From assembly GCA_015062805.1 (NCBI GenBank), contig SUTQ01000018.1, positions 1 through 49,250 of the forward strand: DNA of 49,250 nucleotides. Reading direction: 5' to 3'. A program made the position numbers and the translations under genes. Position 1 is the first letter of the stretch. Every line of letters starts with the position of its first letter. The notes beneath the pieces are model-generated. The model saw nothing but the letters and a program-made list of their open reading frames with translations, searched no databases and was not told the origin of the DNA. The stretch comes from Methanosphaera stadtmanae. Lineage in GTDB: Archaea > Methanobacteriota > Methanobacteria > Methanobacteriales > Methanobacteriaceae. Positions 27,349 through 47,082 of this stretch are shown here, one piece after another.

Positions 27349-29073
27349 ATGTATGAGAGAAATCATGATTTAATAAGCAGTAAATTCAGGGAATTTTTCT
27401 TTCCAACATTATTGACGGCTATGGCCGGAAATATTTGTATTGTTGTAGATTCCATACTTGTAAGTTTCTTCATTGGTGTGGCAAATCTATCTGCAATACA
27501 ATTGGTTTCACCATTGGTTACTTTTGTGAATTTGATTTACTGGATGATTGGACTTGGAGGCAGCATCCTTTGCTCTGTTTCTAAAGCGGAATTTGATGAA
27601 GAGTCAAGCAACGGTTATTTTTCCGTATCAATTTCATCACTCTGTATATTGGGAATACTTATTACAATCATTGGATTGATATTTTCAAAGGACATTCTGG
27701 GGATTTTATGCAGGTCTCAACAATTATTGCCTATGGTAAAATCATTTTACACAGTAGCACTCTTTGAAATGCCTTTTTTATGCTATGTGATGTCAGTATC
27801 ATATTTTGTTAGGGTAGATGGGATGCCTAATTTGGCTTTTAGAACTATATTGCTGGCCAATATTGTCAATCTTTGTTGTGATATTATTTTCATGGGTGTT
27901 CTTAAGATGGATATCGGTGGTGCAGCATTGGCTACAGTAGTTGGTTATGTAGTAGGAGCCATTTTTATTTCAACGTATTTTTTCAAGTCAGAAAGAACAT
28001 TGAAATTTATCAAATTAAAAGTTAAACCATTCATTAATAAGTTTAAGGAAATTTGCAAATCCGGTTTCCCAAGTTCATCAACACAGCTATACTTCACAAT
28101 CAAAATATACATTTATAACATCTTAATTACTCTCTTTGTAGGAGAAGCAGGAATAGCAGCATTTTCAATTTGTGACAACAGTACATTCATATTATACATG
28201 TTTTTAATCGGAGCATCTCAAACAATGTCTTCATTTGTTTCTGTTTACTTTAAGGAAGAAGATTATTCCAGCGTTTCTTATATCGTTAAAAAATCATTAA
28301 GATTCGCTTTAATTTCCAGTGTTGCATTTTCGCTAATCATAATTCTTTGTCCAAATTTAATGTTGATGTTGTATAGCGTTAAAGATCCGTCATTCGTGCC
28401 TACTGTATTAAATGCATTGAGAATATTTGCAATAAGTTTTGTTGGAATTGCAATAACATTCCTATTCACTTTTTATTCTCAGGCCATTCAGAAAAATACA
28501 ATTTCTTCAATTGTTTCACTGCTTGAAGGATTGGTTTTCCCTTGCGGATTCGCAGCAATATTACTGTTAATTCTGGGGGAAAATGGTATATGGCTTTCAT
28601 TTGCAGTAGCTGAAGTAGCTACAATTCTGTTTATCTTCCTATATTCCAGATATTTAAACAGAAAAACTGATGGAGAATATGCGGGATTCTTTATTAACAA
28701 ACATAATGATAATAAAAACGTATTTGAGTATACGATTAATGGTAATGTTAAAGAGGCTGTTGAGCTGGCTCATCAAGTTCAAGATTATTTGTCAAATAAC
28801 AAGTCTTCAGCTTTAGTCAGTTTAGCAATTGAAGAGATGCTTGTAAATATAATTAACACCAATGAAAAAGTCGATGCAATTGACGTTATTGTTAGAAATA
28901 CTGATGATAACATATTGATATCCATTAAAGATAATGGAATTGAATTTAATCCCGTAATTGAAAAAGATGATTTGAAATTTGATAACATCAGCGTTTTAAA
29001 TAAAATTGCGGATAAAATTGATTATTCTAGAGTATTGGGTTTAAATAGTACTGTAATCACTATAAAAAATTAA
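27349..29073 (+). CDS. MATE efflux transporter fused to an RsbW-like ATPase domain
   Basis: 574 residues. The first ~430 form a MATE/NorM-type transporter of about 12 membrane helices, expected to export a small molecule with cation exchange. Residues about 445-574 are a soluble histidine-kinase-type ATPase domain of the RsbW/SpoIIAB class. The N-box is IEEMLVNIINT (~495) and the G1 box ISIKDNGIEFNP (~527), with a weak terminal G-box region (GLNSTVITI). In bacteria such domains phosphorylate STAS antagonists. The gene starts 14 bp behind NRPS 1 with a strong AGGTGAT site, so it is co-translated and most likely exports that peptide. The ATPase tail may gate transport or signal product status. 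A strong terminator follows. Confidence 0.9.
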   Translation: MYERNHDLISSKFREFFFPTLLTAMAGNICIVVDSILVSFFIGVANLSAIQLVSPLVTFVNLIYWMIGLGGSILCSVSKAEFDEESSNGYFSVSISSLCILGILITIIGLIFSKDILGILCRSQQLLPMVKSFYTVALFEMPFLCYVMSVSYFVRVDGMPNLAFRTILLANIVNLCCDIIFMGVLKMDIGGAALATVVGYVVGAIFISTYFFKSERTLKFIKLKVKPFINKFKEICKSGFPSSSTQLYFTIKIYIYNILITLFVGEAGIAAFSICDNSTFILYMFLIGASQTMSSFVSVYFKEEDYSSVSYIVKKSLRFALISSVAFSLIIILCPNLMLMLYSVKDPSFVPTVLNALRIFAISFVGIAITFLFTFYSQAIQKNTISSIVSLLEGLVFPCGFAAILLLILGENGIWLSFAVAEVATILFIFLYSRYLNRKTDGEYAGFFINKHNDNKNVFEYTINGNVKEAVELAHQVQDYLSNNKSSALVSLAIEEMLVNIINTNEKVDAIDVIVRNTDDNILISIKDNGIEFNPVIEKDDLKFDNISVLNKIADKIDYSRVLGLNSTVITIKN

Positions 29074-29097
29074 CAATAACTATAAAAAATAGAAAAC

Positions 29098-29155
29098 TTG
29101 TAAAATTCTTTTTTCGAAAAAAGACTATACAATTTTACAATATCTTTTTTTTTAT
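29098..29155 (+). terminator. Nested-hairpin terminator of NRPS cassette 1
   Basis: Outer arms TTGTAAAATT (29098-29107) and AATTTTACAA (29131-29140) enclose a second palindrome CTTTTTTCGAAAAAAG (29108-29123), followed by a T9 run. This is a strong intrinsic-type terminator 25 bp after the MATE1 stop, closing the two-gene operon. Confidence 0.75.
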
Positions 29156-29258
29156 AAAAATATTAACACGTATATTATTTGGTACAAAAACTGGTATTGG
29201 TATGGGTTTAAAAATACTTTGAGGTGTATGGTCGTTTTTTTGTGATAATCTGAAATGA

Positions 29259-29447: not shown

Positions 29448-29556
29448 TATATATCCTAATTCGAAAGTATGATTCTGAAAAAGAATTATAACATTTATTT
29501 AACCAAACAAACAAAATAGAAATGTTAATTGATTTGTAAAATTGAATAACTTAATA

Positions 29557-30052: not shown

Positions 30053-31249
30053 TTATTCTGGATAAAATCCTCTGATTTCCTTTTCATGTTCTAACCATGC
30101 TTTTATCATTTGATCTTCCAATAAATATAATTTATTTTTATATGAAACAATTCCCTTGTTTTGTAAACTGTTTAGATATTTATTAATTGTTGAAGTTGAA
30201 AAGTCTGTTTTAGAATCAATGGTATTCCATGTGGTTTCATCGTTTTCCATAATTGTTATGATTATCTTCTTTTCATATTCATTTAACGTTCCCCATACTT
30301 TTATCCACATAACTAATATCTGATCAATACTGGTATAAAATGTGTTTTTTATTTCTTCATCATCATAAAGTATATCTGAAGATAATACATTATAGAAACT
30401 ATTTATATATGCAGGTATTCCTCTTGTACATTTATAAAATCTTTCAAAACCGCTTTCAGTGAATTGAATCTCAGGCATGCGTTCTTTAAAGTAATTGTAA
30501 GTTTCTTCTTTGGTGAACGGATCAATGTTAATTTGTATCATTCTTCCCCCAAATGCTCCTGTTTCACCATTAATCATTTCTATTATTTCAGAGGTTTTTG
30601 ATGTTGAACCGGTTAATATGTAACTGACATTTGTTTGAAATTGGTTATGGCTACGTAATAACCAAAAGAAACTTTCTGAGTTTTTCATCTGTTTTAACAT
30701 TTGAATTTCGTCCATAATAATGATAAATCCATCAACTTCTTCTGTATTCTCAACAATTTTCTGAGGCAATTGCATTACAAATTTACTTATTTTCTTGTAG
30801 TCGTCTTCATAATGAGGTATTGGAATATCAAATATTGTTGTTATTTCATTGAAATCATATTTTTTTAATTTAATGTTTGTAATTAAGTTTCTTATAGAAT
30901 TATTAATTTTACTAAATTTGCTATTATCTTTTTCTTCTAGTGTTTGATTAATTTTATTTAGAATTTCTGTTAAAAGAAGAGTAGAATTCAATGTTCCATC
31001 ATTTTCAGAATATATTGAGGATATGTCAATATATGTTACAAGAAAGTTAGGATTAATGTCTTTAATTATTTTATGCAGTAGGAATGTTTTTCCTACCCCT
31101 CTGTATCCAGTGATTGATAATTGTTGTGAAATGTCTTCATGTAATCCACTAAGGTAGAAGTTTATCTTGTTTAATTCTTTGTTACGGTTATAGAAATATT
31201 TATCAATGCCTTTAGGTATAAATAAAGGTATGTTTCCCATCTTTTTCAT
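30053..31249 (-). CDS. Archaeal AAA-type ATPase with C-terminal winged helix
   Basis: A 398-residue P-loop ATPase of the archaeal ATPase group (related to STAND/Cdc6-like proteins). Walker A is ITGYRGVGKTFLLHK near residue 46; Walker B is FIIIMDEIQML near 178; an arginine/sensor region (ILTGSTSKTSEI) follows. The last ~70 residues look like a winged helix (WNTIDSKTDFSTSTINKYLN). These multi-copy archaeal proteins are poorly understood and often associated with mobile or defence regions. The ATG at 31240 (MGNIPLF) is an alternative start. A TATA-like stretch lies only ~20-30 bp upstream, so the mRNA may be leaderless. Three 45-bp repeats sit directly upstream. Confidence 0.85.
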   Translation of the reverse strand: MKKMGNIPLFIPKGIDKYFYNRNKELNKINFYLSGLHEDISQQLSITGYRGVGKTFLLHKIIKDINPNFLVTYIDISSIYSENDGTLNSTLLLTEILNKINQTLEEKDNSKFSKINNSIRNLITNIKLKKYDFNEITTIFDIPIPHYEDDYKKISKFVMQLPQKIVENTEEVDGFIIIMDEIQMLKQMKNSESFFWLLRSHNQFQTNVSYILTGSTSKTSEIIEMINGETGAFGGRMIQINIDPFTKEETYNYFKERMPEIQFTESGFERFYKCTRGIPAYINSFYNVLSSDILYDDEEIKNTFYTSIDQILVMWIKVWGTLNEYEKKIIITIMENDETTWNTIDSKTDFSTSTINKYLNSLQNKGIVSYKNKLYLLEDQMIKAWLEHEKEIRGFYPE

Positions 31250-31559: not shown

Positions 31560-31841
31560 ATGAAAAATAGGTGTATTGAAATGGGTGAACTGTCTAAACT
31601 GCCGAATATCGGTAAAGTATTAGAGAAACAATTAAATGATGTAGGAATATACAGTGTTGATGACTTGATTAACATCGGCAGTAAAGAATCATGGTTAAAA
31701 ATTAAAGAAATAGATGACAGTGCATGTCTAAATAGACTGATGGCATTGGAAGGAGCAATACAGAATATCAGATGGCATGACTTATCCGAAAATGATAAAA
31801 AGAATCTAAAAGATTTTTATAATCTGCACAAACAAAATTAA
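31560..31841 (+). CDS. TfoX C-terminal domain protein
   Basis: A 93-residue protein made only of the TfoX/Sxy C-terminal domain, a helix-hairpin-helix-like fold. GELSKLPNIGKVLEKQLNDV is the hallmark start, followed by GIYSVDDLINIGSKESWLKI and a helical tail. In bacteria TfoX affects competence gene expression; stand-alone C-domains are widespread and of unknown role, possibly binding nucleic acid. The ATG at 31581 (MGELSK) has an ideal AGGTG seven bases upstream and is probably the true start, making an 86-residue protein; the first ATG has only a weak site. Monocistronic, divergent from the ATPase. Confidence 0.8.
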   Translation: MKNRCIEMGELSKLPNIGKVLEKQLNDVGIYSVDDLINIGSKESWLKIKEIDDSACLNRLMALEGAIQNIRWHDLSENDKKNLKDFYNLHKQN

Positions 31842-31995: not shown

Positions 31996-32266
31996 GTCTG
32001 AGTATACTTTCACATTTAATGTTAAGTCTTAAATAATAATATGAAGTCCAATACTAATCCGTGTGGACTTCATTATTACAGTTGTTGCTGTATTCAAGTA
32101 GTCTTCCGACATGACGAGTTTCAAAGAACATTTCCTTTTTAGCCATGACAATAATAACTGTAAGCACTGTTATTACTATCGTCTCCAGGCACTTTGTCTC
32201 CGTAGTCAATTCTATTTTTTCCTGCATAAATTGACAAAGAAATGGAATATCATGCAAGCCAATATC
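31996..32266 (-). pseudogene. 3' fragment of a third CPBP protease gene
   Basis: The minus strand encodes a peptide beginning FMQEKIELTTETKCLETIVI and ending EYSNNCNNEVHTD, matching the C-terminal third of the CPBP protease at 47342-48202, and the downstream DNA also matches (47283-47555). The two catalytic motifs in the missing N-terminal part are absent, and homology ends abruptly at about 32266. It is oriented like the right-hand CPBP gene, so the two form direct repeats around NRPS cassette 2. The fragment's tail (NNEVHTD) is like the right copy and unlike the left copy (SYRH). Confidence 0.85.
32043..32071 (-). terminator. Hairpin at the CPBP fragment stop
   Basis: GAAGTCCA (32043-32050) pairs with TGGACTTC (32064-32071), with the remnant's stop codon in the loop. 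The equivalent element after the intact copy (47331-47359) has a T-A pair where this one has C-G. Both arms changed together, which suggests the hairpin is maintained as RNA structure. Confidence 0.5.
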
Positions 32267-32273
32267 CATTTGC

Positions 32274-32423
32274 ATGGGTAAGTATACTGGTGTTCAAATT
32301 ATTAATCCATCGGCTTATAGATATTTTGGTGCTATTTCATTGATTAAATCATCAAATACACATCATGTTTTATGCAACATTCAGAGCAATTCAAGCATTT
32401 TAATAGGTTTTCTACAAAGTTAA
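32274..32423 (+). other. Possible 49-codon remnant ORF before NRPS 2
   Basis: Starting immediately after the CPBP fragment, an ATG-initiated frame reads MGKYTGVQIINPSAYRYF and continues through HHVLCNIQSNSS to a TAA. Its composition is protein-like but there is no ribosome site and I recognise no family. It may be part of a gene broken during the same rearrangement. The rest of 31842-32487 holds the nested repeat, CPBP fragment and NRPS 2 promoter. Confidence 0.2.
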
Positions 32424-32439
32424 AATTTATTATCAATAT

Positions 32440-32449: not shown

Positions 32450-32487
32450 ATATAATATATTATGTTAATTGTTTAAGGTTTGATTTG

Positions 32488-35400
32488 ATGATTGATAAAA
32501 CAGAAATTATTTTCAAGGAATATTTATCCAAATTGTGGGTTGATTTTTATGAATCAACATTAATTTCTCCAAATAAAAATGGTGAAAAAGAAAAAGGTAT
32601 AACTTATAAATCAGAACACGTATTCAAAAAGGAAAACCTTGTTGAATTTGCTAAAGTCAATTCAATTTCGATTAATGAGGTTTTATTAGCAAGTTTGAGC
32701 TTAACACTTAATAAGTTCAATTTTTCACATAAAACCTTAATTTTCAATCAGAACAACGTTCCATTTGCCGCTAACTTTGAAAACAGGCAAATTTCCATTA
32801 AGGAATTTCTAGAAAAAATTCATGAGAATTATGAAAAAACTTTAGAATTTGAGGACTATGTTAATGGTGATGACCTTCTTCTAAAGCCTGAATTTTATTA
32901 TTCTTTTGATGAAAATTCAAAACAGGATTCCGAATATTCAAATTATCTGTGCATCATAGAAAATGAGAAAACTGTTTCATTGTCACTATTTTACAATGGA
33001 GAATTATATACTGAAGATTTTATTGAATTGTTCTTATCAAGTCTTGAAAAAATCATGACACAAATTATCAATGCGGATATTGATAAAACAAATATCTGCA
33101 ACATCGCTCTTGTGAATGAAAAAGAAGATACTGCTTTTAGTGAAGTTGAAATGCCGTTACTTCACAAACGATTTGAGAAACAGGCAATGGAAAAGCCTGA
33201 TGAAATTGCCCTTGTTGCAAGCGATGCCATATTGACTTACAAACAATTGGATGAAAAGGCAAATGTTATTGCAAATGCCTTAATCGATAAAGGAGTCAAG
33301 CCCCAAAGCAATGTTTTATTCATGCTTCCAAGGGACAGCGATATGATTGCTGCTATTCTAGGTATCTTAAAAGCGGGGTGTGCATTTATTCCGATTGATC
33401 CGGAATATCCTCAGGAAAGGATAAATTATATCTATGAAAACAGTCAGGCAGATTATATCATATCTGATGGATCTGGAAAAAACTCTTTAGACATTAAAGA
33501 ACTACTTAAAGAAGATAACACGGAAAATCCTGATGTTAATGTTAATGAAGATGATCTTGCTTATATGATTTACACTTCTGGATCTACTGGCAATCCTAAG
33601 GGAGTAATGATTACTCATAAGAATATCTGTAATCAGGTTTCAAACCCGAAATCCACTTATGATAGCTTACTTTGTATTACAACAATTTCTTTTGATGTAT
33701 CTATTGATGATATACTCACTTCTCTCTCAAATGGTCTAAAATTAGTATTTGCAAATGATGTTGAAATAAAGAATATTCCCGAACTGACAAAATTAATCAA
33801 TGAGAATAAACCGGAGGTGGCTGATTTCACACCTTCACGATTGGCTTCCTACTTGGAAGTTAAAGATTTTTGCAATGCAATAAGTTGCTTAAAATGTGTT
33901 TTCATTGGAGGAGAGCAATTTTCAACAAAAGTTTTTGAAGACTTAAGAAAATACAGTGATGCGGTTGTCTATAACAGTTACGGTCCAACTGAAACAACGA
34001 TTACCTCCAACAACAAGGAAGTCACTGATATAAATGATTTGACTGTAGGGTTTCCGCTAACCAATTATATCACCGATGTTCGCGATATTGACGGTAACTT
34101 ATTGCCTGATGGAGTAATGGGTGAACTGTATATTGGGGGCACTGGTGTAGGTAAGGGATACTACAACATGCCTGAAAAGACCGAAGAGGTGTTCCTGACA
34201 ATCAACGACATTCCTTATTATAGAAGCGGAGATTATGCCATCAAGCTTCCGAATGGAGAGATTGATATTAAGGGAAGGATTGACAATCAGATCAAATTAA
34301 GAGGATTAAGAATTGAAATTGGCGAAATCGAAACTAACATAAGCCAATATCCCAAAATTAAACAAGCAGTTGTAGTTATTAAAGAGATTAACGATAACGA
34401 CCATTTGTGCGCATATTATACTGCTGATGAGGAAATTAATGTTGATGATTTAAAAGAGTATTTAAAAGACCGTTTAACTCGTTATATGGTTCCTAGTGTA
34501 TTCATGCAGCTTGATAATATGCCTCAAACTCCAAATGGTAAGACAGACTTGAAGCAACTGCCTGAACCACATTTGACATTAAAGTTAACACTTCCTGAAA
34601 ACGAAACTGAAATAATGTTGCATGAACTTGCTTCATCCATTAGCAAAACAAAGGAATTCGGTACTACTGATGATTTGTATACTGTAGGATTTACTTCATT
34701 GACATTGATGAAATTAAATGCAAAGATTTATGAAGAAATGGGAATTAATCTTGATATTATTGCATTATTGGATGATCCTACAATTAAAAACATTGCAAAT
34801 GAAATTGAAAATAATGCTATCTTAGATTTAAATAATATGATTGAGTTGTCCCATAATAAGGAGTATTATCCGTTAACTGAAAATCAAATGGGAATTTATT
34901 ATGAGTGTATTCAAAGCGGAGATGTTGCACAATATAACCTTCCATCAATCATACGATTTGATAATGAAATCAGTGCAGATAGATTAAAAGAGGCCATTAT
35001 AAAAACGATTGAAACATATCCTTACCTTAAAACAAGGATTATTAGTGAAAAAGGTAAAGTGATGCTAAAACGTGATGATTCAATACCTATTGATGATATT
35101 CCAATAGTTAATGTTGAAAATATTTCAGATTATGAAATCGAAAAGGAAAATCTAAAACTATTTGATTTGCACAATGACCAACTGTTCAGATTTAAAATCT
35201 ATAAAACTCATGATGAAACAATATTGTTCTCAGATGTTCACCACATTATTTCTGATGGTGAATCATTGGATAAACTATTCACAAATATTGCCAATGCTTA
35301 TCAGGGAAGAGAAATTGAAAAAGAAACTATAAATGGTTACATAAACAGCCTGATTGAAAGTGAGAATGAAAACAGTGAAAAATACGAGTCCTCCAAAAAG

Positions 35401-38400
35401 TTCTTCTGGGATAAATTAACTCAGGATGTTGATTCGACTGTTCTTACCCCTAACTTAAATGGTAATTTTGAAGAAGGAATTTTAAAGTCAATTTCTAAAA
35501 ATATTGATCCGGAATTGGTTAATAAGTTTTGCAGAGACAATAAGATAACTCCTAACGTTTTATTCATGGCAGTGACCATGTTGAACCTGAATAAGTATAC
35601 GTTCAGTAACAAGACATTAATTACAACCATTTTCAACGGACGGTCAAACTCATCATACATCAACACACAAGCATTGATGGTTAAAACACTCCCTATTGTC
35701 TCAATTAATGATGATCGGACTTTAACAATTAAACAATATTTAAAATCTGTAAATGACATTTGGATGGAAACAATAAGTCATTCTGATTATCCTTATACTA
35801 GAATTTCTGAAGAGTTTGGACTAAAACCGGAGTTTTTCTATGCATATAATAATCTTGATGCTGAAGAAATAGAAATCAACGGTAAAATTTACAAGGTCAA
35901 ATACTTAAACTCACTTGAAGTCAATTATAAAATATCTCTGGAGGTTAACGAAACCAGGGACAGTATCGATTTATTCCTCCAATACAATGACCAATTGTAC
36001 AGTGCAGATTACATTGAAACCTTCCTAAATTGCATTGTTGATGTTATAAATCAATTAATTGAAGAGGATATTGAAGAATTGCGCATCAATGAAATTGAAC
36101 TTGGAGAAAGTAGGGATGCACATACTTTTGAGCCAGTTAAAATTCCATTTATCCATAAGCGTTTCGAAAAACAAGTCGATGAAAATCAGGATAATGTTGC
36201 ATTGGTTGCAAGTGATGTTACATTAACTTATGGCAAGTTAAACGAGAAAAGTAATAAGATTGCAAATGCCTTAATCAAGAAGGGCGTAAAACCAAAAAGC
36301 AATGTTCTTGTAATGCTTAAAAGGGATAGTAATTTAATTGCTTCTATTTTAGGTGTCCTAAAAGCAGGCTGTGCTTTTGTTCCTATTGATCCCGAATATC
36401 CTCGGGAGAGAATTAATTATATTTATGAAAACAGTCAAGCTGATTATTTAATAGCGGAAGGTGCTGTTGAAAATTCAATTGATGTTAAAGATTTACTTAA
36501 AGAGGATAATACTGATAATCCTCAAGTAGATATTGATTCAGATGATTTGGCTTATATGATTTACACTTCCGGTTCAACTGGAAATCCTAAAGGGGTAATG
36601 ATAAGTCATAAGAATATTACTAATCTATTCTCTAAAAGTGAAGATAATCTAATTTACAATTCTTATATGAAGATGAATAAAATTCTTTCTCTTTCAACCG
36701 TTTCTTTTGATGCATTTTTACTTGAGTTCATGTCTTTAACATTTGGTTTAGAAATGATACTGGCTAATGATACTGAAATAAAGAATGTGGGAAATCTAAC
36801 AAATTTAATTAAAAGAGAAAAACCTGATTCATTCCCTATTATGGTACCATCAAGGTTAAGACAATATTTGGAACATAAAGAATTTGTCAGTGAATTAAAC
36901 AACTTCAAATATATCGCTCTTGGAGGTGAAATGGTTCCTCAAGACCTGATCGCACAACTCTTAGAATTTTCTGATTTAGAGGTATTTAACCTTTATGGTC
37001 CAACTGAAGCATCAGTAACCTGTAATGGAAATAAAATTATTAATGAACATAATATTACTGTTGGAAAATCATTACATAACGTAATTACTGATGTGAGGGA
37101 TATCGACGGTAAATTAGTTCCATATGGTGTGATGGGCGAACTATACATTGGTGGTTTTGGTGTAGGTAAAGGATACTATAATTTGGATGAAAAGACAAAA
37201 GAGGTATTTTTAACTATCGATAACATCCCTTATTATAAGAGTGGGGATTATGCAATTCAATTGCCGAATGGTGAAATTGACATCAAAGGAAGAATTGATA
37301 ATCAAATTAAACTAAGAGGATTAAGGATAGAAATCGGGGAAATTGAAGCCAATATTGCTAAATTCCCACATATTAAACAGGTTGCTGTTGTAATTAAAGA
37401 AATAAACAATAATGAGCATTTATGTGCTTATTATACTGCTGATGGTGAAATTGATAGTGACGATTTAAAGGCGTATTTGAAAAATCGTCTTACCCGATAT
37501 ATGGTTCCAACTGTATTTATGCAAATGGATGAGATGCCAATATCTCCTAGCGGTAAAACTGATTTAAAACATTTACCTGAACCTCAACTTAAATTTGAGA
37601 GGGTAATGCCTGAAACTGAAACCGAAGAAAAATTATTTGAAATTGTATCATCCTTTGTAGATGCAACTGAATTTGGTGTTACAGATGACTTATATGCTCT
37701 TGGTTTCACTTCATTATCATTAATGAAATTAAATTCCATGATTTATGAGCAAATGGGCGGCAATTTGGATATTTCTATATTATTCAATGAGCCAAATATT
37801 AAAAACTTTGCAATTGAACTGGACAATTCATTTAATAAAGAATCCGGTCTTGAAGAGATTATTGAGTCTGCAAAAGAAATGGAATATTATCCATTGACAG
37901 AAAATCAATTGGGAGTTTATTATGAATGTGTACAAAATCCAGATGTAATTAAGTATACAATGCCTACAACTGTAAGATTTGCAGGTGATGTTGATGCCAG
38001 TAGGCTTAAAGATGCAGTTATCAAAACAATCGAATCACATCCATATATTAAGACTAGAATTGTAACTCATAATGGGGAATTAAAACAAAAACGATGCGAT
38101 GATGCAGCAATTGATGAAATTGCAATTGTTAAAGTTGATGGTATTAGTGATGAACAGATAGCTAAAAATGATGTTGATCCGATTTCTTTAGACGGTAATC
38201 AGTTATTCAAATTCAAAATATATGAAACTCCCGATGAAGTTGTTTTATTCTCCGATTTCCACCATATAATCACTGATGGTGTATCACAAAATAATTTATA
38301 TAGGGATATCGCAAAGATTTATGAAGGTAAAGATATTGAAGAAGAATGTATTGACGGTTATATCTACAGCATTCTCGAAAGGGATTTGGAAAATAATGAA

Positions 38401-41400
38401 AGATACCAATCTGCAAAAGATTTCTTTGACGAGAAATTAACTCAAGGGATAGAATCCACTGTTTTAACTCCAAACCTTAGTGGAAATCCTGATGAAGGTA
38501 AAATAAAAAATATTACGGATGTCATTGATTCAGAATTAATCAATGAGTTTTGTAATGATAATTCAATAAGTAAAAATGCATTGTTTATGGCAAGTGCAGT
38601 GTTAAGTCTAAACAAATTTACATTTACTGATAAGACATTGATTACAACCATATTTAATGGCAGATCAAATCCAAATTATTTCAATACTCAGGGCTTCCTG
38701 GTAAAAACTATTCCATTCATTATTAATAATGAAAATAGATTAATATCCGTCATAGATTTCATAAAATCCATTGACCAGACATGGAAAAACACATTAAAAA
38801 ACAGTATTTATCCATATACTAAAATTGCTGAAAAATATCAACTAAAACCAGAATTCTTCTTTACCTATCATGAATTCTTGCAATCAGATGATATGGTTGT
38901 AGACAATAAAGTTTATAAATCCAAATTATTATCTGCAAATGATTTGGTAACTGCTGATTCTAAAATCAGTTTGGCTATTTATGATGATAAAGATGAGTTT
39001 AATTTTATCCTGGAATATAATGATCAGTTATACACTGAAGATTACGTTCAAAAATTCCTAAATGCAATGAAAAGTATTTTGACCCAATTCGTTGAAAAGG
39101 ATGTGGATGCTTATAAAATATGTGATATTGCACTTGAATCCGAAAAGGAAGCACCAGTATTTGAAGATGTCGGCGATTTAATTATTCATGAACGTTTTGA
39201 AAGACAAGTTGATGAGACTCCTGATAATGTTGCATTAATTGCAAGCGATGAAACATTAACTTATGAGCAATTAGACCAAAAAGCAAATCGTATTGCCAAT
39301 GCGTTGATTAAACTAGGGGTCAAACCAAAAAGCAGAATTTTAATAATGCTTCCTAGAGACAGCAATCTTATTTCATCAATATTCGGTGTGTTGAAGACTG
39401 GCAGTGCATATATTCCAATAGATTTGGCATATCCTCAAAATCGTGTTGATTATATTTATGAAAACAGTCAAGCAGATTATATCATTTCAACTGAAAGTAA
39501 AGGAAATGCTATAGGAATTGATGAATTATTAAAAGAAGAAAATATTGAAAGGCCAAATGTCAAAACTTCTCCTGAAGATTTAATTTATATGATTTACACT
39601 TCCGGTTCAACCGGAAAACCTAAAGGAGTAATGATTTCCCACAGGAATGTTGCAAGCCTATATGCACAAAATAATGAAAATGCTTTATATCGAAACGTAT
39701 CAAGACTTAAAAAATCTCTATCTGTTACTTCAGTTTCATTCGATCCCTTTATGATGGATTTAAGTGTATTAACCTTTGGATTGACAATGGTATTGGCTGA
39801 TGACAATGCAATTAAGGATATTAAAGAATTGGTTGACTTAATTAAAAGAGAAAAACCGGACTTATTGTCTTCAGGAACTCCATCAAGAATTAATCAGTTT
39901 ATGGAAGATTCTGAATTTAGGGATGAATTGGATAACTTCAATGAAATGTACCTTGGGGGAGAAATGATGCCTGAGGATTTTGTTTCTAAGGTTAAATCCT
40001 GCAGTGATACTATAATTTATAATTCTTATGGACCTACCGAAACAACAATCATGTCCAGTTTTAAAGATATCGTTCACTCTGAAAGGATTACAATTGGAAA
40101 AGCAAGTTACAGTTTCATAATGGATGTGCGGGATATTGATGGAAAACTTTTGCCTGATGGATTGATGGGTGAACTATACATTGGAGGTCCTTGTGTTGGA
40201 AAAGGATATTATAATTTGGATGATAAGACTAAGGAAGTGTTCCTGACTATCAATGACACCCCTTATTATAAGACTGGAGATTATGCAATCAAATTACCAA
40301 ATGGTGAATTTAGTATTGAAGGAAGAATTGACAATCAAATTAAGTTAAGAGGATTAAGAATCGAAATTGGTGAAATAGAATCCAATATCGCCAAGTTCCC
40401 ACATATTAAACAGTGCGTTGTTATAATTAAGAAGATTAATAACAATGAACATTTATGTGCTTATTTCACGGCTGATGAAGAAATTGACATAAATCTTTTG
40501 AAAAGGTATTTGGGAAATAAATTAACTGAATATATGGTTCCTACAGTATTTATGCATCTTGATGAGATGCCAATGTCTCCAAACGGTAAAACAGATATTA
40601 AAAGACTTCCAAAACCAAAATTAAATTTACATTATGTTAAAGCCGAAAACGAAACTGAAGAAAAATTGGTTGAACTTGTTTCATCAATTGCAGAAACTAC
40701 TAAATTTGGAACAACAGATAATTTATATGAACTTGGTTTCACTTCTTTAACGTTAATGAAATTAAACTCAATGATTTTCAATGAAACAAATGTAAATATT
40801 GACATAGCTTCATTATTCACAAATCCAACAATCAAGTCACTTGCAGATAAAATTGACAACAATGTGGATTCAGACTTGAATCTGGATGAAATCATTGAAA
40901 CTGCAAAAGATATGGAATATTTCCCATTAACCGCAAACCAATTGGGAATCTATTATGAATGTATGCAAACGGATAAAATCAAATATACAATGCCTTGTGC
41001 AGTAAGGTTTGACACTTCTATTGATCCTAATAAACTTAAAGAAGCGATTATTGAAACTGTTGAAGCACATCCATATCTCAAAACAAGAATCATCAATACC
41101 GATGATGGAAAAATAATGCAGAAAAGATGTGATGATGCCGAAATTGAAGAAATAGAAATTGTTGAAATAGATTCAATTTCTAACAAAGAAATAATGAAAA
41201 ACGACATAAAAGCAATTCCATTAGATAACAATCAGTTATTTAGATTTAAAATCTATAAAACACCAACAGAAACCATATTATTCAGTGATTTCCACCATAT
41301 TATTACAGATGGTGTGTCACAGGGCAATTTCTTCAATGATTTAACCAAAGCATTTAACAACGAGAAAATAGAAAGCGAAGCAATTGATGGATATGCATAC

Positions 41401-44400
41401 AGCCTTATAGAAGAGGAAACTTCTCTTAATGAAGTCTCTAAAAAATTCTTTAAAACTCAATTTAGTCAAGGTATTGAATCAACTGTTTTAACTCCGAATA
41501 TAAATGGTGACCCTGATATCGGAAATATAAAACTCGTTTCAGACGAACTTAGTTCCGCTTTTGTTAGACATTTCTGTCAGGACTACTCAATAAGTCCAAA
41601 TGTTTTATTCATGACGGCCACTATTTTAAGTCTTAATAAATTTACATTCACTGACAAATCATTGATTACAACAATATTTAACGGTAGAGCAAATTCAAAT
41701 TACTTTAATACACAAGGAATGCTGGTTAAAACATTACCAATTATCGTAAATGGTGAAAATCGTGACATGATGGTTGAAGATTACATAAAAATTGTTGATA
41801 AATCATGGAAAGATGCATTAACTCATAGTAACTATCCATACACAAAACTCGCAGAAGACTATCAGTTGAAGCCGGAATTCTTCTATTCTTATCATGAATC
41901 ATTAGCCACTAAATTTAAAATTAATGATAAGGTCTATGAAGCAATTGAACTTGACGGTACTGTTACAACTGATTATAAGATAAACTTTGATATTTATGAT
42001 GACGGGGAAAAAATTAGGTTGTATATTGAATATAACGATCAAATCTATACTGAAGAGTATATAAAAGGATTTTTATATTCAGTTAAATACATTTTATTCC
42101 AATTTTTCGTAAACGACATGGATAAATTAAAAATAAATGACATTGAATTGGTAGAAGGTGAAATTCCTGTATTTGAAGATATTGATACTCCAATTTTACA
42201 TAAACGTTTTGAAAAGCAGGCAGTCAAAAAAGCAAATGATGTGGCATTGGTTGTAAGTGATGCCACTTTAACTTATGGTGAGTTAAACGAGAAAAGTAAT
42301 AAGATTGCAAATGCCTTAATCGAGAAAGGAGTAAAACCGAAAAGCAATGTTCTTATTATGCTTAGGCGTAATAGTAATTTAATTGTTTCTATTTTAGGTG
42401 TCCTGAAGGCAGGTTGCGCCTTTGTCCCTATTGACCCTGAATATCCTCAAGAAAGGATTAATTATATTTATGATAACAGTCAAGCGGATTACATTATAAG
42501 CAATGAAACTTCTGAAAATTCATTAAATGTTGATGAACTTCTTGAAGAGGAAAATACGGCTAATCCGAATGTTGACATCACTTCTGAGGATTTGGCATAC
42601 ATGATTTATACTTCCGGATCTACAGGCAATCCTAAAGGAGTAATGATTAGTCATAAAAACATTTGTAATCAGGCACAAAATCCTAAATCCACTTATGATA
42701 GCTTACTTTGCATTACAACAATATCCTTTGATGTTTCTGTTGATGATATATTGACATCCCTTTCAAACGGATTGAAGTTAATATTGGCCGATGATGTTCA
42801 AATCAGAAATATTTCTGAGCTTATTAGATTAATTGATGAAAATAAGCCTGAGGTTTTAGAGATTACTCCTTCCAGAATTGCATCATATCTTGAACTAAAC
42901 GAATTCTGCAATGTGATTTCCTGTTTGAAATGCATATTCCTTGGTGGTGAGCAATTTTCAGCAAAAGTTTATGGTGATTTAAGAAAATATAGTGATGCTG
43001 TTATTTATAACAGTTATGGTCCGACTGAAACCACAATCACATCAAACAACAAGGCGGTTACTGATATAAATGATTTGACTGTAGGACTTCCTTTAACCAA
43101 TTATGTCACTGATGTTCGCGATATTGACGGTAAGCTGGTTCCTCAGGGTGTGATGGGTGAACTTTACATTGGAGGTATGGGTGTTGGAAAAGGATACTAC
43201 AACATGCCTGAAAAAACCAAAGAATCCTTCTTGACCATCAATGGCATACCATATTATAAAAGTGGAGATTATGCCATCGAGCTTCCAAATGGTGAAATTG
43301 AAATCAAAGGAAGAATTGACAATCAAATCAAATTAAGGGGTTTGAGAATAGAGATTGGTGAAATTGAAACCATTATAAGTCAATATCCTAATATAAAACA
43401 AGCTGTTGTAGTGATTAAAAAGATCAACAATAATGATCACTTGTGTGCTTATTATGTTGCTAACGAGATGATTGATAGTGATGATTTAAAAGAGTTTTTA
43501 AAAGATCATCTTACTCTATATATGGTTCCAACAGTATTTATGCAGATTGATGAAATGCCGCAAACACCAAATGGTAAAACAGATACTAAAAAACTTCCGG
43601 AACCAAAAATGGCATTGAATTATGTAGCTCCAAAAACAAAACTTGAACAAGAAATCTGCGCAATATTTTCATCTATATTAAATATAAAAACTGTAGGTGC
43701 TGAAGATGATTTCTTTGAAATTGGAGGAACCTCACTTATTGCATCTAAGCTAATTATTGAACTGCTTAAACAGGGATATACCATTAGATATGATGATATT
43801 TTCCACAATAAGACTCCTAAAGGACTGGCAAAGCTATTATCTGGAGAAAGTAGTCCTGAAGAGGAATTGAATGTAGAAAAGGATATTATCAAAAACTATG
43901 ACTATGATGAAATCAACAAGATTTTAGAAGAAAATACCTTAGAAAACTTCCTTGATAGCGAAAGACTAGAACTGGGCAATGTTTTACTAACTGGAGTCAC
44001 CGGATTTTTAGGAATCCATATCCTTTATGAATTCATCAAAAATGAGAAAGGAAAAATTTATTGTATGTTAAGAAAAGGAACATATGATTCCTGTGAAGAA
44101 CGCTTAATCGATTTGATGGATTATTACTTTGATGAAGATTTCACGGACATGATTGGATCACGGATTATTCTAAGTGAAGGCGACATAACTGAAATCGAGG
44201 ACTTCAAAAAACTTGAAGATGAATCAATTGATACTGTAATTAACGCAGCAGCAATCGTGAAACATTATACTGCTGATGATCATATATTCAAAGTAAATGT
44301 CGACGGAGTAATCAATGGACTTAAGTTCGCCCAAACAAGAAATAACATAAGATTTATCCAAATGTCAACAATCAGTATCCTTTCATCATATTCCCTTAAT

Positions 44401-45072
44401 GAAGATGCATATCCAAATCAAGAATATACTGAAAGAACATTATATTATGAACAGTATTTGGAAAATAAATACCTGGCCAGTAAATTTTTAGCTGAAAGAA
44501 TGGTTTTAGAGGCAGCGACTAAAGGACTTTCTGTAAAAATTATTAGGCTTGGAAACTTAATGAGCCGTTATTCTGATGGGGTGTTCCAAAAAAATTATGA
44601 TACAAATGCATTTTTAAGTAACATAAAAGCCATTAAAAAACTAAAAGCTGTACCTCCTGTCATGGCTAATTTTGAAACTGACATGAGCCAAATAGATTAT
44701 GTTGCAAAGGCAATACTTGAACTATGCAAGACTCCAGAAAAATCCAGAGTTTTCCACTGTATGAATAACCATTACATATCCTATATGGACATTATTGATG
44801 TATTAAATACATATGGTTATGGAATTGAAGAGGTTGAAGTCGAGAAATTTAAACAAATTTACGAACAGAATATGAATGAGAATATACAAGGTATAATCAC
44901 GGCAGATTTTACAATTGATGATTTGGATGAAGAAAACGATTTCGATGAAAATGTAAAAATAGAGCAGACTACTGAAATTCTTCACTCATTAGGATTTGAT
45001 TGGCCTAAACCAGACAGTGAGTATCTTAAGCGATTAATTGATTATTTAAATAAATTTAATTATTTTGAATAA
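32488..45072 (+). CDS. Tetramodular non-ribosomal peptide synthetase with terminal reductase (NRPS 2)
   Basis: 4194 residues from the ATG at 32488 (the TTG just before it is not needed; AAGGT fits the ATG). Order: partial condensation domain (1-215, C-terminal half); A1 (~224-700, TSGSTG ~363); T1 (Ser737, GFTSL); C (HHIISDG from His918); A2 (~1222-1705, TSGSTG ~1360); T2 (Ser1742); C (HHIITDG from His1925); A3 (~2233-2715, TSGSTG ~2371); T3 (Ser2753); C (HHIITDG from His2936); A4 (~3236-3710, TSGSTG ~3375); T4 (Ser3749, GGTSL); thioester reductase (~3815-4194, GVTGFLG at 3836, Tyr3995 and Lys3999 of YLASK). It should make a tetrapeptide released as aldehyde or alcohol. All four A domains keep the amino-group Asp, implying ordinary alpha-amino acids; A1 and A4 have nearly the same pocket. 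MATE2 starts 10 bp after the stop. Confidence 0.97.
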   Translation: MIDKTEIIFKEYLSKLWVDFYESTLISPNKNGEKEKGITYKSEHVFKKENLVEFAKVNSISINEVLLASLSLTLNKFNFSHKTLIFNQNNVPFAANFENRQISIKEFLEKIHENYEKTLEFEDYVNGDDLLLKPEFYYSFDENSKQDSEYSNYLCIIENEKTVSLSLFYNGELYTEDFIELFLSSLEKIMTQIINADIDKTNICNIALVNEKEDTAFSEVEMPLLHKRFEKQAMEKPDEIALVASDAILTYKQLDEKANVIANALIDKGVKPQSNVLFMLPRDSDMIAAILGILKAGCAFIPIDPEYPQERINYIYENSQADYIISDGSGKNSLDIKELLKEDNTENPDVNVNEDDLAYMIYTSGSTGNPKGVMITHKNICNQVSNPKSTYDSLLCITTISFDVSIDDILTSLSNGLKLVFANDVEIKNIPELTKLINENKPEVADFTPSRLASYLEVKDFCNAISCLKCVFIGGEQFSTKVFEDLRKYSDAVVYNSYGPTETTITSNNKEVTDINDLTVGFPLTNYITDVRDIDGNLLPDGVMGELYIGGTGVGKGYYNMPEKTEEVFLTINDIPYYRSGDYAIKLPNGEIDIKGRIDNQIKLRGLRIEIGEIETNISQYPKIKQAVVVIKEINDNDHLCAYYTADEEINVDDLKEYLKDRLTRYMVPSVFMQLDNMPQTPNGKTDLKQLPEPHLTLKLTLPENETEIMLHELASSISKTKEFGTTDDLYTVGFTSLTLMKLNAKIYEEMGINLDIIALLDDPTIKNIANEIENNAILDLNNMIELSHNKEYYPLTENQMGIYYECIQSGDVAQYNLPSIIRFDNEISADRLKEAIIKTIETYPYLKTRIISEKGKVMLKRDDSIPIDDIPIVNVENISDYEIEKENLKLFDLHNDQLFRFKIYKTHDETILFSDVHHIISDGESLDKLFTNIANAYQGREIEKETINGYINSLIESENENSEKYESSKKFFWDKLTQDVDSTVLTPNLNGNFEEGILKSISKNIDPELVNKFCRDNKITPNVLFMAVTMLNLNKYTFSNKTLITTIFNGRSNSSYINTQALMVKTLPIVSINDDRTLTIKQYLKSVNDIWMETISHSDYPYTRISEEFGLKPEFFYAYNNLDAEEIEINGKIYKVKYLNSLEVNYKISLEVNETRDSIDLFLQYNDQLYSADYIETFLNCIVDVINQLIEEDIEELRINEIELGESRDAHTFEPVKIPFIHKRFEKQVDENQDNVALVASDVTLTYGKLNEKSNKIANALIKKGVKPKSNVLVMLKRDSNLIASILGVLKAGCAFVPIDPEYPRERINYIYENSQADYLIAEGAVENSIDVKDLLKEDNTDNPQVDIDSDDLAYMIYTSGSTGNPKGVMISHKNITNLFSKSEDNLIYNSYMKMNKILSLSTVSFDAFLLEFMSLTFGLEMILANDTEIKNVGNLTNLIKREKPDSFPIMVPSRLRQYLEHKEFVSELNNFKYIALGGEMVPQDLIAQLLEFSDLEVFNLYGPTEASVTCNGNKIINEHNITVGKSLHNVITDVRDIDGKLVPYGVMGELYIGGFGVGKGYYNLDEKTKEVFLTIDNIPYYKSGDYAIQLPNGEIDIKGRIDNQIKLRGLRIEIGEIEANIAKFPHIKQVAVVIKEINNNEHLCAYYTADGEIDSDDLKAYLKNRLTRYMVPTVFMQMDEMPISPSGKTDLKHLPEPQLKFERVMPETETEEKLFEIVSSFVDATEFGVTDDLYALGFTSLSLMKLNSMIYEQMGGNLDISILFNEPNIKNFAIELDNSFNKESGLEEIIESAKEMEYYPLTENQLGVYYECVQNPDVIKYTMPTTVRFAGDVDASRLKDAVIKTIESHPYIKTRIVTHNGELKQKRCDDAAIDEIAIVKVDGISDEQIAKNDVDPISLDGNQLFKFKIYETPDEVVLFSDFHHIITDGVSQNNLYRDIAKIYEGKDIEEECIDGYIYSILERDLENNERYQSAKDFFDEKLTQGIESTVLTPNLSGNPDEGKIKNITDVIDSELINEFCNDNSISKNALFMASAVLSLNKFTFTDKTLITTIFNGRSNPNYFNTQGFLVKTIPFIINNENRLISVIDFIKSIDQTWKNTLKNSIYPYTKIAEKYQLKPEFFFTYHEFLQSDDMVVDNKVYKSKLLSANDLVTADSKISLAIYDDKDEFNFILEYNDQLYTEDYVQKFLNAMKSILTQFVEKDVDAYKICDIALESEKEAPVFEDVGDLIIHERFERQVDETPDNVALIASDETLTYEQLDQKANRIANALIKLGVKPKSRILIMLPRDSNLISSIFGVLKTGSAYIPIDLAYPQNRVDYIYENSQADYIISTESKGNAIGIDELLKEENIERPNVKTSPEDLIYMIYTSGSTGKPKGVMISHRNVASLYAQNNENALYRNVSRLKKSLSVTSVSFDPFMMDLSVLTFGLTMVLADDNAIKDIKELVDLIKREKPDLLSSGTPSRINQFMEDSEFRDELDNFNEMYLGGEMMPEDFVSKVKSCSDTIIYNSYGPTETTIMSSFKDIVHSERITIGKASYSFIMDVRDIDGKLLPDGLMGELYIGGPCVGKGYYNLDDKTKEVFLTINDTPYYKTGDYAIKLPNGEFSIEGRIDNQIKLRGLRIEIGEIESNIAKFPHIKQCVVIIKKINNNEHLCAYFTADEEIDINLLKRYLGNKLTEYMVPTVFMHLDEMPMSPNGKTDIKRLPKPKLNLHYVKAENETEEKLVELVSSIAETTKFGTTDNLYELGFTSLTLMKLNSMIFNETNVNIDIASLFTNPTIKSLADKIDNNVDSDLNLDEIIETAKDMEYFPLTANQLGIYYECMQTDKIKYTMPCAVRFDTSIDPNKLKEAIIETVEAHPYLKTRIINTDDGKIMQKRCDDAEIEEIEIVEIDSISNKEIMKNDIKAIPLDNNQLFRFKIYKTPTETILFSDFHHIITDGVSQGNFFNDLTKAFNNEKIESEAIDGYAYSLIEEETSLNEVSKKFFKTQFSQGIESTVLTPNINGDPDIGNIKLVSDELSSAFVRHFCQDYSISPNVLFMTATILSLNKFTFTDKSLITTIFNGRANSNYFNTQGMLVKTLPIIVNGENRDMMVEDYIKIVDKSWKDALTHSNYPYTKLAEDYQLKPEFFYSYHESLATKFKINDKVYEAIELDGTVTTDYKINFDIYDDGEKIRLYIEYNDQIYTEEYIKGFLYSVKYILFQFFVNDMDKLKINDIELVEGEIPVFEDIDTPILHKRFEKQAVKKANDVALVVSDATLTYGELNEKSNKIANALIEKGVKPKSNVLIMLRRNSNLIVSILGVLKAGCAFVPIDPEYPQERINYIYDNSQADYIISNETSENSLNVDELLEEENTANPNVDITSEDLAYMIYTSGSTGNPKGVMISHKNICNQAQNPKSTYDSLLCITTISFDVSVDDILTSLSNGLKLILADDVQIRNISELIRLIDENKPEVLEITPSRIASYLELNEFCNVISCLKCIFLGGEQFSAKVYGDLRKYSDAVIYNSYGPTETTITSNNKAVTDINDLTVGLPLTNYVTDVRDIDGKLVPQGVMGELYIGGMGVGKGYYNMPEKTKESFLTINGIPYYKSGDYAIELPNGEIEIKGRIDNQIKLRGLRIEIGEIETIISQYPNIKQAVVVIKKINNNDHLCAYYVANEMIDSDDLKEFLKDHLTLYMVPTVFMQIDEMPQTPNGKTDTKKLPEPKMALNYVAPKTKLEQEICAIFSSILNIKTVGAEDDFFEIGGTSLIASKLIIELLKQGYTIRYDDIFHNKTPKGLAKLLSGESSPEEELNVEKDIIKNYDYDEINKILEENTLENFLDSERLELGNVLLTGVTGFLGIHILYEFIKNEKGKIYCMLRKGTYDSCEERLIDLMDYYFDEDFTDMIGSRIILSEGDITEIEDFKKLEDESIDTVINAAAIVKHYTADDHIFKVNVDGVINGLKFAQTRNNIRFIQMSTISILSSYSLNEDAYPNQEYTERTLYYEQYLENKYLASKFLAERMVLEAATKGLSVKIIRLGNLMSRYSDGVFQKNYDTNAFLSNIKAIKKLKAVPPVMANFETDMSQIDYVAKAILELCKTPEKSRVFHCMNNHYISYMDIIDVLNTYGYGIEEVEVEKFKQIYEQNMNENIQGIITADFTIDDLDEENDFDENVKIEQTTEILHSLGFDWPKPDSEYLKRLIDYLNKFNYFE

Positions 45073-45082
45073 GGGGAACAGT

Positions 45083-46765
45083 ATGTCAAATGAAATAATA
45101 ACTCATAAATTCAAGGAATTATTGTTGCCATCAATACTTATAGCAATGGCTTTAAACATATCCGCTATTGTTGATTCAAGTTTTGTGGCAACGTTTATCG
45201 GACACAATGGACAAGCAGCTTTGCAGGTATTAGAACCTTTAGTAATGTTAATCACAATATTTGAATGGTTGTTTGGATTGGGAGGTCAAATATTAGCATT
45301 AAATATGAAAGCTGAATTTGATGAAGATGGAAGCAATCATTACTTTACAACTGCAATGCTTACAACGGTAATTGCATCATTTTTAATTCTTTTAGTATGC
45401 TTTTTATTTGAAGATACCGTAATTGGATTATTGCATCCAACTGTTGATATAATACCTTATGTGAAATCATATGGGAGATATTTATTCATGGCTTTTCCAA
45501 TAGTGACCATATTGGGAGTTCTAGGTCAATTTATTCGGGTAGATGGACAACCAAATTTTGCTTCAGGCGTTATTATTGTTGCAAACATCATTAATTTAAT
45601 TTTAGATTATCTGTTCCTAGGCGTTTTTCATATGGGTATTGAAGGAGCATCACTTGCTTTGCTTATAGGTTATTTGGTTGGATTTATTTGTACTTTAAAA
45701 TATCATTTCGATTCAAAAAGAACATTTAGATTTGTTTTATCCAAATTGAAAATTAAAACAATGATAACCTCCACTATTGAAATAATTAAAATAGGCCTTC
45801 CTGGTGCAAGCATGGGTTTATTTAATGTAATATTAGTTTATATAATGAATCTAATTCTTGGTGGAGTTTTAGGAGAGTTGGGTTTAGATATATTCAATGT
45901 ATGTTTAAATGCATTACTGATAATAAGTATTTTTATCATGGGATTCGCCGAGACATTGTCTTCCATTGTCCCTATTTTCTATGGGCAGAATGATTTTTAT
46001 AACCTTAATCATATTGTGCGAAAATCAGTTATTGCAACAACAATATGTTCCATAATATTCACAACATTCCTATTGATATATCCTGATGGGCTATTGATGT
46101 TTTTTAACCTTAGCCAAATGCCTAATGATAGCTTAGTGGAAAATGCACTTAGAATATACTCATTAGCATTTATCCCAATGGCCTTTTCAACCATGTTGCT
46201 GTTTTATTATGAGGGTATTGAAAGGACTGTTGAATCTGGAATCATTACAATCATTTCGGAATTGCTTGGACCGTTAATGTTCACATTCCTATTATATCCA
46301 TTTATCGGCATTACCAGTATTTGGGTATCATTCCCATTAGGTTTTGTTTTATCAATAGTGGCTGTTGCCGTTTATGTAAGGATAGTTGAAAGAAAAGAGA
46401 GCGAATATTACGGACTTTTTTTCATTAGAAAAGGATTGATCGAAAAAACTAGAAATTACACGTTGGAAAGCAAAAATGATGACATGAAAACCGAAATGTT
46501 CAATCATTTAAATAGCTTGAATGCGCCTACTTCATCTTTGGAAACATTAGATAAGATAATAAACACAATGTTTGATTCAAACGATGAAAAACTGCATATG
46601 GAGATATTATTGATTGATTATGGTGATAAAATAACTGTTAACATGAAAGATGAAGGAAAAAAAGAAGTAATAAGAGATATTGAAAAATTATTTTCCCAAG
46701 ATAACCTCAAAATTAGTGAAGTATTGGGATTTAACAATATTGAGTATACAATCAATAAATGTTAA
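45083..46765 (+). CDS. MATE efflux transporter with degenerate RsbW-like tail
   Basis: 560 residues from the ATG at 45083, which has AAGGGG at good spacing; the upstream in-frame TTG at 45065 overlaps NRPS 2 and is less likely. Residues ~1-430 are a MATE/NorM-type transporter with about 12 membrane helices (IRVDGQPNFASGVIIVANII in the middle is typical). The last ~115 residues align with the ATPase domain of MATE1 but have lost its motifs. Where MATE1 has IEEMLVNIINTN this reads LETLDKIINTMF, and DNG is DEG in VNMKDEGKKEV. It probably cannot bind ATP and may be a docking or sensing module. Co-translated with NRPS 2, it should export that product. Confidence 0.88.
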   Translation: MSNEIITHKFKELLLPSILIAMALNISAIVDSSFVATFIGHNGQAALQVLEPLVMLITIFEWLFGLGGQILALNMKAEFDEDGSNHYFTTAMLTTVIASFLILLVCFLFEDTVIGLLHPTVDIIPYVKSYGRYLFMAFPIVTILGVLGQFIRVDGQPNFASGVIIVANIINLILDYLFLGVFHMGIEGASLALLIGYLVGFICTLKYHFDSKRTFRFVLSKLKIKTMITSTIEIIKIGLPGASMGLFNVILVYIMNLILGGVLGELGLDIFNVCLNALLIISIFIMGFAETLSSIVPIFYGQNDFYNLNHIVRKSVIATTICSIIFTTFLLIYPDGLLMFFNLSQMPNDSLVENALRIYSLAFIPMAFSTMLLFYYEGIERTVESGIITIISELLGPLMFTFLLYPFIGITSIWVSFPLGFVLSIVAVAVYVRIVERKESEYYGLFFIRKGLIEKTRNYTLESKNDDMKTEMFNHLNSLNAPTSSLETLDKIINTMFDSNDEKLHMEILLIDYGDKITVNMKDEGKKEVIRDIEKLFSQDNLKISEVLGFNNIEYTINKC

Positions 46766-46781
46766 AGATTGATTCTTTAAC
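46761..46781. terminator. Bidirectional hairpin between MATE2 and the STAS gene
   Basis: GTTAAAGA and TCTTTAAC form a perfect 8-bp stem with a 5-bp loop, overlapping the MATE2 stop and ending just before the convergent STAS gene. It is placed to end transcription from both sides. Confidence 0.55.
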
Positions 46782-46785
46782 ATTT

Positions 46786-47082
46786 CTATTCAATATTTAG
46801 AATTTTATCAAAGCCAGACATTACGAGGATTTCTTTTATTGGCTCATTAACTTTAATGAGGGATGGAATATCTTGAGGTTTTAATTTTTTTTCAGTAGCA
46901 ACCAAAACTCTTAAGCCGGCACTTGAAATGTATTCCAAATCAGTGAAGTCAATTATTAATGAATCGAATTTACCCATTTCATCCATTATTTCATTTTCAA
47001 AGTCAGGTGCAGTAGTTGTATCAATTTTATCTTTGACGGTTATTGTTAATTCTTTTTCATCATATTTTTTTATCAATTCCAT
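46786..47082 (-). CDS. STAS-domain anti-sigma-factor-antagonist-like protein
   Basis: A 98-residue single STAS domain of the RsbV/SpoIIAA type. The conserved segment LIIDFTDLEYISSAGLRVLV contains the serine pair (Ser53-Ser54) that is phosphorylated by RsbW-type kinases in bacteria. N-terminal strands include GKIDTTT-like KDKIDTTTAPDFE. Archaea lack sigma factors, so a partner other than a sigma factor is needed; the RsbW-like domain on MATE1, or its degenerate version on the adjacent MATE2, is the obvious candidate. It is convergent with MATE2 and has its own upstream region (47083-47330) with an AT-rich TATA-like stretch near 47197-47222. Start supported by GGGAT upstream. Confidence 0.9.
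   Translation of the reverse strand: MELIKKYDEKELTITVKDKIDTTTAPDFENEIMDEMGKFDSLIIDFTDLEYISSAGLRVLVATEKKLKPQDIPSLIKVNEPIKEILVMSGFDKILNIE

Follow-up and report, generated by a model that had tools for sequence, protein, structure and literature searches.

What is the target of a partner-switching system in an archaeon? Partner switching is known mainly for releasing sigma factors, and to our knowledge sigma70-type factors are absent from archaea, which leaves the target open. The question is raised by a 49,250-nt stretch of Methanosphaera stadtmanae DNA (contig SUTQ01000018.1, positions 1 to 49,250 of the forward strand; hereafter the window), in which two nonribosomal peptide synthetase (NRPS) genes are each followed by the gene of a MATE exporter with a SpoIIAB/RsbW-fold domain at its C-terminus, and a STAS protein gene lies beside the second exporter. 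We propose export as a concrete and testable answer: partner switching of the bacterial type that acts on an exporter instead of a sigma factor, a reading that we put at a probability of about 0.5. The features on which it rests are the following.

17825–27334, plus strand: NRPS1, with three AMP-binding domains (PF00501), two full condensation domains (PF00668) and a terminal thioester reductase domain (PF07993)
27349–29073, plus strand: MATE1, an exporter with 12 transmembrane segments (PF01554, E = 5e-19; hydrophobic segments) and a C-terminal SpoIIAB/RsbW-fold domain
28678–29070, plus strand: MATE1 tail, the SpoIIAB/RsbW-fold domain, residues about 444–574 (Foldseek, hhalign, and the ratio of nonsynonymous to synonymous substitution rates, dN/dS)
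32485–45072, plus strand: NRPS2, with four AMP-binding, three condensation and four carrier domains and a terminal thioester reductase domain
45065–46765, plus strand: MATE2, an exporter with a homologous tail and a degenerate ATP site (PF01554, E = 1.6e-22; 32% identity to MATE1)
46406–46762, plus strand: MATE2 tail, of the same fold but without an N-box (AlphaFold2, Foldseek, hhalign)
46786–47082, minus strand: STAS protein of the anti-sigma-antagonist type (PF01740, E = 1.6e-12; TIGR00377)
46921–46923, minus strand: codon of Ser54, the predicted phospho-acceptor of the STAS protein, aligned with Ser56 of RsbV

The gap between NRPS1 and MATE1 is 14 nt, and the end of NRPS2 overlaps the start of MATE2 (45072 vs. 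45065), for which the ATG at 45083 may be an alternative start. MATE2 and the STAS gene are convergent, lying tail to tail.

Fold and homology of the exporter tails

Both window exporters have 12 hydrophobic segments, with PF01554 matching in two stretches (two MatE repeats), and a C-terminal extension of about 120–130 residues. The three untailed MATEs of the genome are open frames of 459–460 residues, and there are three tailed ones, of 562–574 residues: two adjoin NRPS genes, and the third, on contig C42, lies together with an NRPS remnant and the third STAS gene.

The Pfam family HATPase_c_2 matched the MATE1 tail weakly (E = 5e-4; 20.5 bits, below the cut-off of 27.4) and was not detected in MATE2; two MATEs of the same architecture from other genera passed the cut-off (53.6 bits at locus L138 and 46.1 bits at L139). 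A sequence-profile search of the PDB with the tail gave nothing significant, and a comparison of folds was therefore needed. When the AlphaFold2 model of the MATE1 tail was compared with the PDB by Foldseek, the 18 best matches were all SpoIIAB, RsbW or UsfX (E = 1e-5 to 7e-4). The model of the MATE2 tail, the alignment for which included MATE1 tails, had a predicted local distance difference test (pLDDT) score of 83, and its top matches were RsbW and SpoIIAB from the same set. In hhalign, a profile of nine MATE1-type tails matched the profile of stand-alone RsbW proteins with a probability of 97.6 (E = 5e-12), and the MATE2 tail matched the MATE1 tails with a probability of 71.5. On these comparisons we regard the homology of the tails to SpoIIAB and RsbW as firm despite the weak Pfam score.

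ATP site of the tails

28831–28848, plus strand: N-box of MATE1, E495-E496-M-L-V-N500, with E495, E496 and N500 invariant in alignment A1 of eight relatives
28930–28938, plus strand: G1 motif of MATE1, D528-N-G530, invariant across eight diverged sequences
28978–29010, plus strand: degenerate G2 region of MATE1, F-D-N-I-S-V-L against G-L-G-I-H-L-V in RsbW, preceded by a short lid

A preliminary description of this DNA had assigned to MATE1 an RsbW/SpoIIAB-like ATPase domain with an intact N-box and DNG box. The fold, the N-box and D528-x-G530 are indeed kept, but the ATP site as a whole is not intact: the GxG of the G2 box is replaced by F544-D-N, and only 12 residues separate the F-N-P motif from the G2 position, compared with 22 in the RsbW of the same genome, a shortening of the lid by about 10 residues. 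The MATE2 tail has lost the N-box. In the stand-alone RsbW proteins, the N, G1 and G2 boxes were invariant in the eight sequences aligned. In a tree with some long branches these proteins grouped apart from all MATE tails, and tails linked to GH3 synthetases (see below), some of them with a residual LGI of the G2 box, were placed between them and the NRPS-linked tails.

Among tails sampled by their similarity to MATE1, 41 distinct ones had the E, N, D and G residues complete and a visible upstream region, and 38 of these lay directly behind an NRPS gene. Another 42 tails lacked at least one of the four residues; 18 were NRPS-linked, mostly of the MATE2 type, and 24 were orphans. With its nucleotide-binding residues kept and the G2 box and much of the lid gone, the MATE1 tail is most likely a pseudokinase dock and probably no longer an enzyme. 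The retention of the N-box and DxG suggests that MATE1 tails still bind nucleotide. Judged by their sequence, MATE2-type tails cannot be kinases.

STAS protein, kinase and phosphatase in the same genome

The window STAS protein scored 54.9 bits with TIGR00377, above the cut-off of 53.45. The phosphorylatable serine pair previously noted in it is present, and a serine occupied the phospho-acceptor position in all 35 aligned archaeal STAS proteins. The phospho-acceptor is, however, followed by an alanine, giving the motif I-S-S-A-G-L, which is the commonest form in the relatives (25 of 35). The genome contains three STAS proteins with a phosphorylatable serine.

SpoIIE was not found in the window, in agreement with the preliminary description, which had seen no serine phosphatase there and supposed that a third partner lay elsewhere. 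This partner, together with a canonical kinase, was found on other contigs: the genome encodes two SpoIIE phosphatases and one canonical stand-alone RsbW. Contig C17 carries a STAS-RsbW-SpoIIE operon (L008 11322–13881), the RsbW of which (C17:116617–116994; PF13581, 57.6 bits) has the N, G1 and G2 boxes. On contig C38, the second SpoIIE gene (L010 9604–11362) adjoins a gene for an Sfp-type phosphopantetheinyl transferase (PPTase; L010 8788–9486). Both phosphatases were detected with E-values of 1e-46 to 1e-48 and have the metal-ligand motifs GDASGKG and DDMT intact, and about nine membrane segments precede the phosphatase domain of SpoIIE. The C38 gene is split into two frames, one for the membrane part and one for the phosphatase part, by either a frameshift or an assembly error.

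Gene order and co-inheritance in relatives

At four loci (L047–L050), genes for an NRPS, a tailed MATE, STAS, RsbW and SpoIIE follow one another in this order on one strand, and at L052 the order is MATE, STAS, PPTase, RsbW and SpoIIE; these contiguous arrangements come from several genera. At L046 and in many genomes of genus g10, the STAS and RsbW genes are divergent and lie beyond the NRPS gene, about 8 kb from the MATE gene.

Across 139 Methanobacteriaceae genomes, tailed MATEs were present in 77, condensation domains in 79, RsbW in 80, STAS in 81 and SpoIIE in 84. The tailed MATE and SpoIIE were both present in 69 genomes and both absent from 47, and RsbW and SpoIIE were both present in 79 and both absent from 54; of the 77 genomes that have a tailed MATE, 68 also encode a stand-alone RsbW. 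Thus, the five parts are mostly co-present or co-absent, and this strong co-occurrence supports the earlier suggestion of a link between partner-switching components of the bacterial type and the export of NRPS products.

A STAS gene lay within 1 kb of 16 of the 138 MATE genes listed, where fewer than one would be expected from an estimate based on gene density. MATE2 and STAS genes are convergent neighbours in nine genomes (this one and eight others), and MATE and STAS genes are co-directional neighbours in seven. In a search of 152 genomes of the phylum, the tails were found in Methanobacteriaceae only. In genomes G007 and G008 (loci L064, L065 and L076), the MATEs have degenerate tails and neither SpoIIE nor RsbW was found; here the tail persists without the switch.

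GH3 clusters as a second biosynthetic setting

Four loci (L136, L137, L143 and L144) combine a tailed MATE and STAS with an RsbW fused to a GH3 acyl-amide synthetase and with two SpoIIEs. The fusion proteins, of 712–720 residues, have the G2 box (L136 4482–6617, L137 7734–9869, L143 5304–7463 and L144 11766–13901). At three other loci (L138, L139 and L141), the tailed MATE, RsbW, SpoIIE and STAS share the locus with two GH3-type proteins each, the GH3 identity being based on Pfam in L136 and L139 and on N-terminal resemblance in the remaining loci. Since these NRPS-free loci combine the tailed MATE with the switch module, it is the module, and not NRPS as such, that the tailed MATE accompanies. 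Locus L146 (1777–12295) has two GH3 genes, an ABC exporter pair, STAS, RsbW and SpoIIE, and no MATE; here the switch module accompanies exporters of a different class.

Selection on the tails

The median dN/dS was 0.082 for the tail and 0.097 for the pump core in type 1, and 0.169 and 0.171, respectively, in type 2; in all three groups compared, the value for the tail equalled or fell below that for the core. The tails are thus not decaying, and purifying selection acts on them as strongly as on the pump core. The MATE copy of genome G019 has a frameshift within the tail. At L145 (6669–7037), a free-standing MATE1-type tail without a pump, 69% identical to the window tail, is probably a gene remnant.

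A model with the exporter as output

In the model that we propose, a membrane-bound SpoIIE phosphatase and the stand-alone RsbW kinase would set the phosphorylation state of STAS. Unphosphorylated STAS would dock on the SpoIIAB/RsbW-fold tail, presumed to be cytoplasmic, of a MATE exporter for NRPS or GH3 products and would alter the activity or assembly of the exporter, either opening or closing the pump. RsbW would compete for STAS, phosphorylate it and so release it. Both tails would serve as docks, that of MATE1 as a pseudokinase and that of MATE2 with its ATP site degenerate. We hold the full form of this model, with STAS shuttling between the RsbW kinase and pseudokinase MATE tails so that a signal sensed at the membrane would be linked to the export of amides made by NRPS and GH3 enzymes, somewhat more tentatively than the reading of export as the output.

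Because MATE2, devoid of an N-box, keeps a STAS neighbour in nine genomes, the pairing of STAS with the MATE does not depend on catalysis by the tail. Docking of unphosphorylated STAS is favoured because a full kinase–phosphatase–STAS set exists without the tail as a kinase, the case of MATE2 being the most telling. The gating of the transporter by STAS, which the preliminary description had named in passing, fits better than its idea of the tail as a kinase. As for the signal, in M. ruminantium treated with lauric acid the expression of mru_0069 and mru_0352 (both MatE), mru_0351 (NRPS) and mru_0514 (PPTase) rose together (PMC5816558). This joint rise and the membrane segments of SpoIIE hint at membrane stress.

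Several observations weigh against the model. The AlphaFold2 model of the MATE1 tail is moderately confident (pLDDT 70, and 53–66 in the lid region), and the invariant N-box and DxG of NRPS-linked type-1 tails argue for a continuing role of nucleotide binding, for which a pure dock would have no need. The co-occurrence counts across the 139 genomes are not phylogenetically independent. Furthermore, some genomes with tailed MATEs lack SpoIIE or RsbW, some of them being incomplete or having degenerate tails, and neither protein was found in G007, G008, G025, G026, G027, G032 and G094.

The alternative that survives best, though we consider it unlikely, is that the module controls synthesis or another target, and that the tail acts as a membrane sink for STAS or RsbW, by titrating or localising them, or else senses nucleotide on behalf of the pump, independently of STAS. 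The fusion of RsbW to a GH3 synthetase in one cluster type ties the kinase to synthesis rather than export, such systems have varied non-sigma outputs in bacteria (PMC8256260), and the invariant N-box and DxG of type-1 tails would suit a nucleotide sensor. Yet MATE2-type tails, without the N-box, still fold in the same way, remain under purifying selection and have a STAS neighbour of their own.

More doubtful is the proposal of the preliminary description, in which the MATE1 tail would work as a serine kinase on STAS and the pump would thereby report flux or membrane state. The invariance of E496, N500, D528 and G530 in the NRPS-linked MATE1 type agrees with a kinase, as do the LGI remnant of G2 in GH3-linked tails and the Pfam scores above the cut-off in two of those GH3-linked tails that were checked. 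The loss of G2 and of part of the lid argues against it, as does the presence of a stand-alone RsbW in 68 of the 77 genomes concerned, and MATE2 tails are predicted to be incapable of the reaction. That the tails are functionless vestiges of an old fusion is very improbable: the ATP-site residues lost in many of them (24 orphan and 18 NRPS-linked) and the frameshifted G019 copy would fit, but the dN/dS values, equal to or below those of the pump core, contradict it for the intact type.

Relation to known systems

The components resemble SpoIIAA-SpoIIAB-SpoIIE and RsbV-RsbW-RsbU of Bacillus in their folds, in the conserved-serine STAS protein, GHKL-type kinase and PP2C-type SpoIIE phosphatase, and in their frequent arrangement in one operon. 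Unlike these, the archaeal system has a second SpoIIAB/RsbW-fold domain, without a G2 box and fused to a MATE exporter, and no sigma factor. Bacterial partner switching with non-sigma outputs is known, and BtrU-BtrV-BtrW of Bordetella affects type III secretion (PMC8256260); partner-switching parts there act on a secretion process, as proposed here, and not on a sigma factor alone, but the secretion machine is a different one and there is no fusion to a secondary transporter. SulP/SLC26 transporters likewise have a partner-switching-type domain at their cytoplasmic end. It is the STAS half that is fused in those proteins, whereas in the archaeal exporters the fused half has the RsbW fold, the pump family is an unrelated one, and the STAS proteins are free.

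Around the NRPS genes of M. ruminantium M1, Leahy et al. 2010 described the same gene set, namely MatE, serine phosphatases, an anti-sigma antagonist, an anti-sigma kinase and a PPTase, and suggested that it takes part in sensing, in the regulation of NRPS and in export (PMC2812497). The passages of that paper on which we draw do not mention a C-terminal domain of MatE and propose sensing and regulation of NRPS expression, not the gating of export. In the literature searched, which included few subscription journals, there was no report of a MATE-RsbW fusion, of its pseudokinase nature, of the cross-genus operon or of the GH3 version. Thus, the gene neighbourhood was already published for M. 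ruminantium in 2010, and the fusion, the pseudokinase tail, the cross-genus operon and the GH3 version appear to be new.

A plasmid collection queried with the MATE1 tail gave no precedent for the fusion, and with a GH3-linked MATE tail it gave weak matches to ATP-binding, SpoIIE and PAS proteins or to unannotated DNA. A near-full-length plasmid match from Ilyobacter to a GH3-linked MATE turned out to be a 454-residue MATE and a separate gene. No fusion was found in viral contigs. A pattern scan of genome contigs found it in Methanobacteriaceae only, with patterns so strict that the fusion may still occur in bacterial chromosomes.

A pump that is fused to a kinase-like half, is co-inherited with the switch in about half of the Methanobacteriaceae genomes examined and occurs in two biosynthetic settings points to export. 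A circuit for turning on genes in bacteria may therefore control an export pump in these archaea. The tailed MATE pumps of gut and rumen methanogens probably export uncharacterised small peptides, and the model, if true, would provide a handle on these NRPS products.

Other features of the window

Since both NRPSs terminate in a thioester reductase domain (PF07993), their products probably leave the enzymes as aldehydes or alcohols, without the action of a thioesterase. Between the two NRPS units lie, on the minus strand, an archaeal ATPase_2 gene with a winged-helix C-terminus (30053–31249), which adjoins a TfoX_C gene (31560–31841), and a CAAX protease fragment (32057–32293). This fragment is the third CAAX protease sequence of the window; the other two belong to an inverted repeat of 1477 nt and 87% identity (358–1834 and 47371–48847), the arms of which are 45.5 kb apart and bracket the island. 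Each arm consists of a TetR regulator and CAAX protease gene pair, which suggests a segmental duplication.

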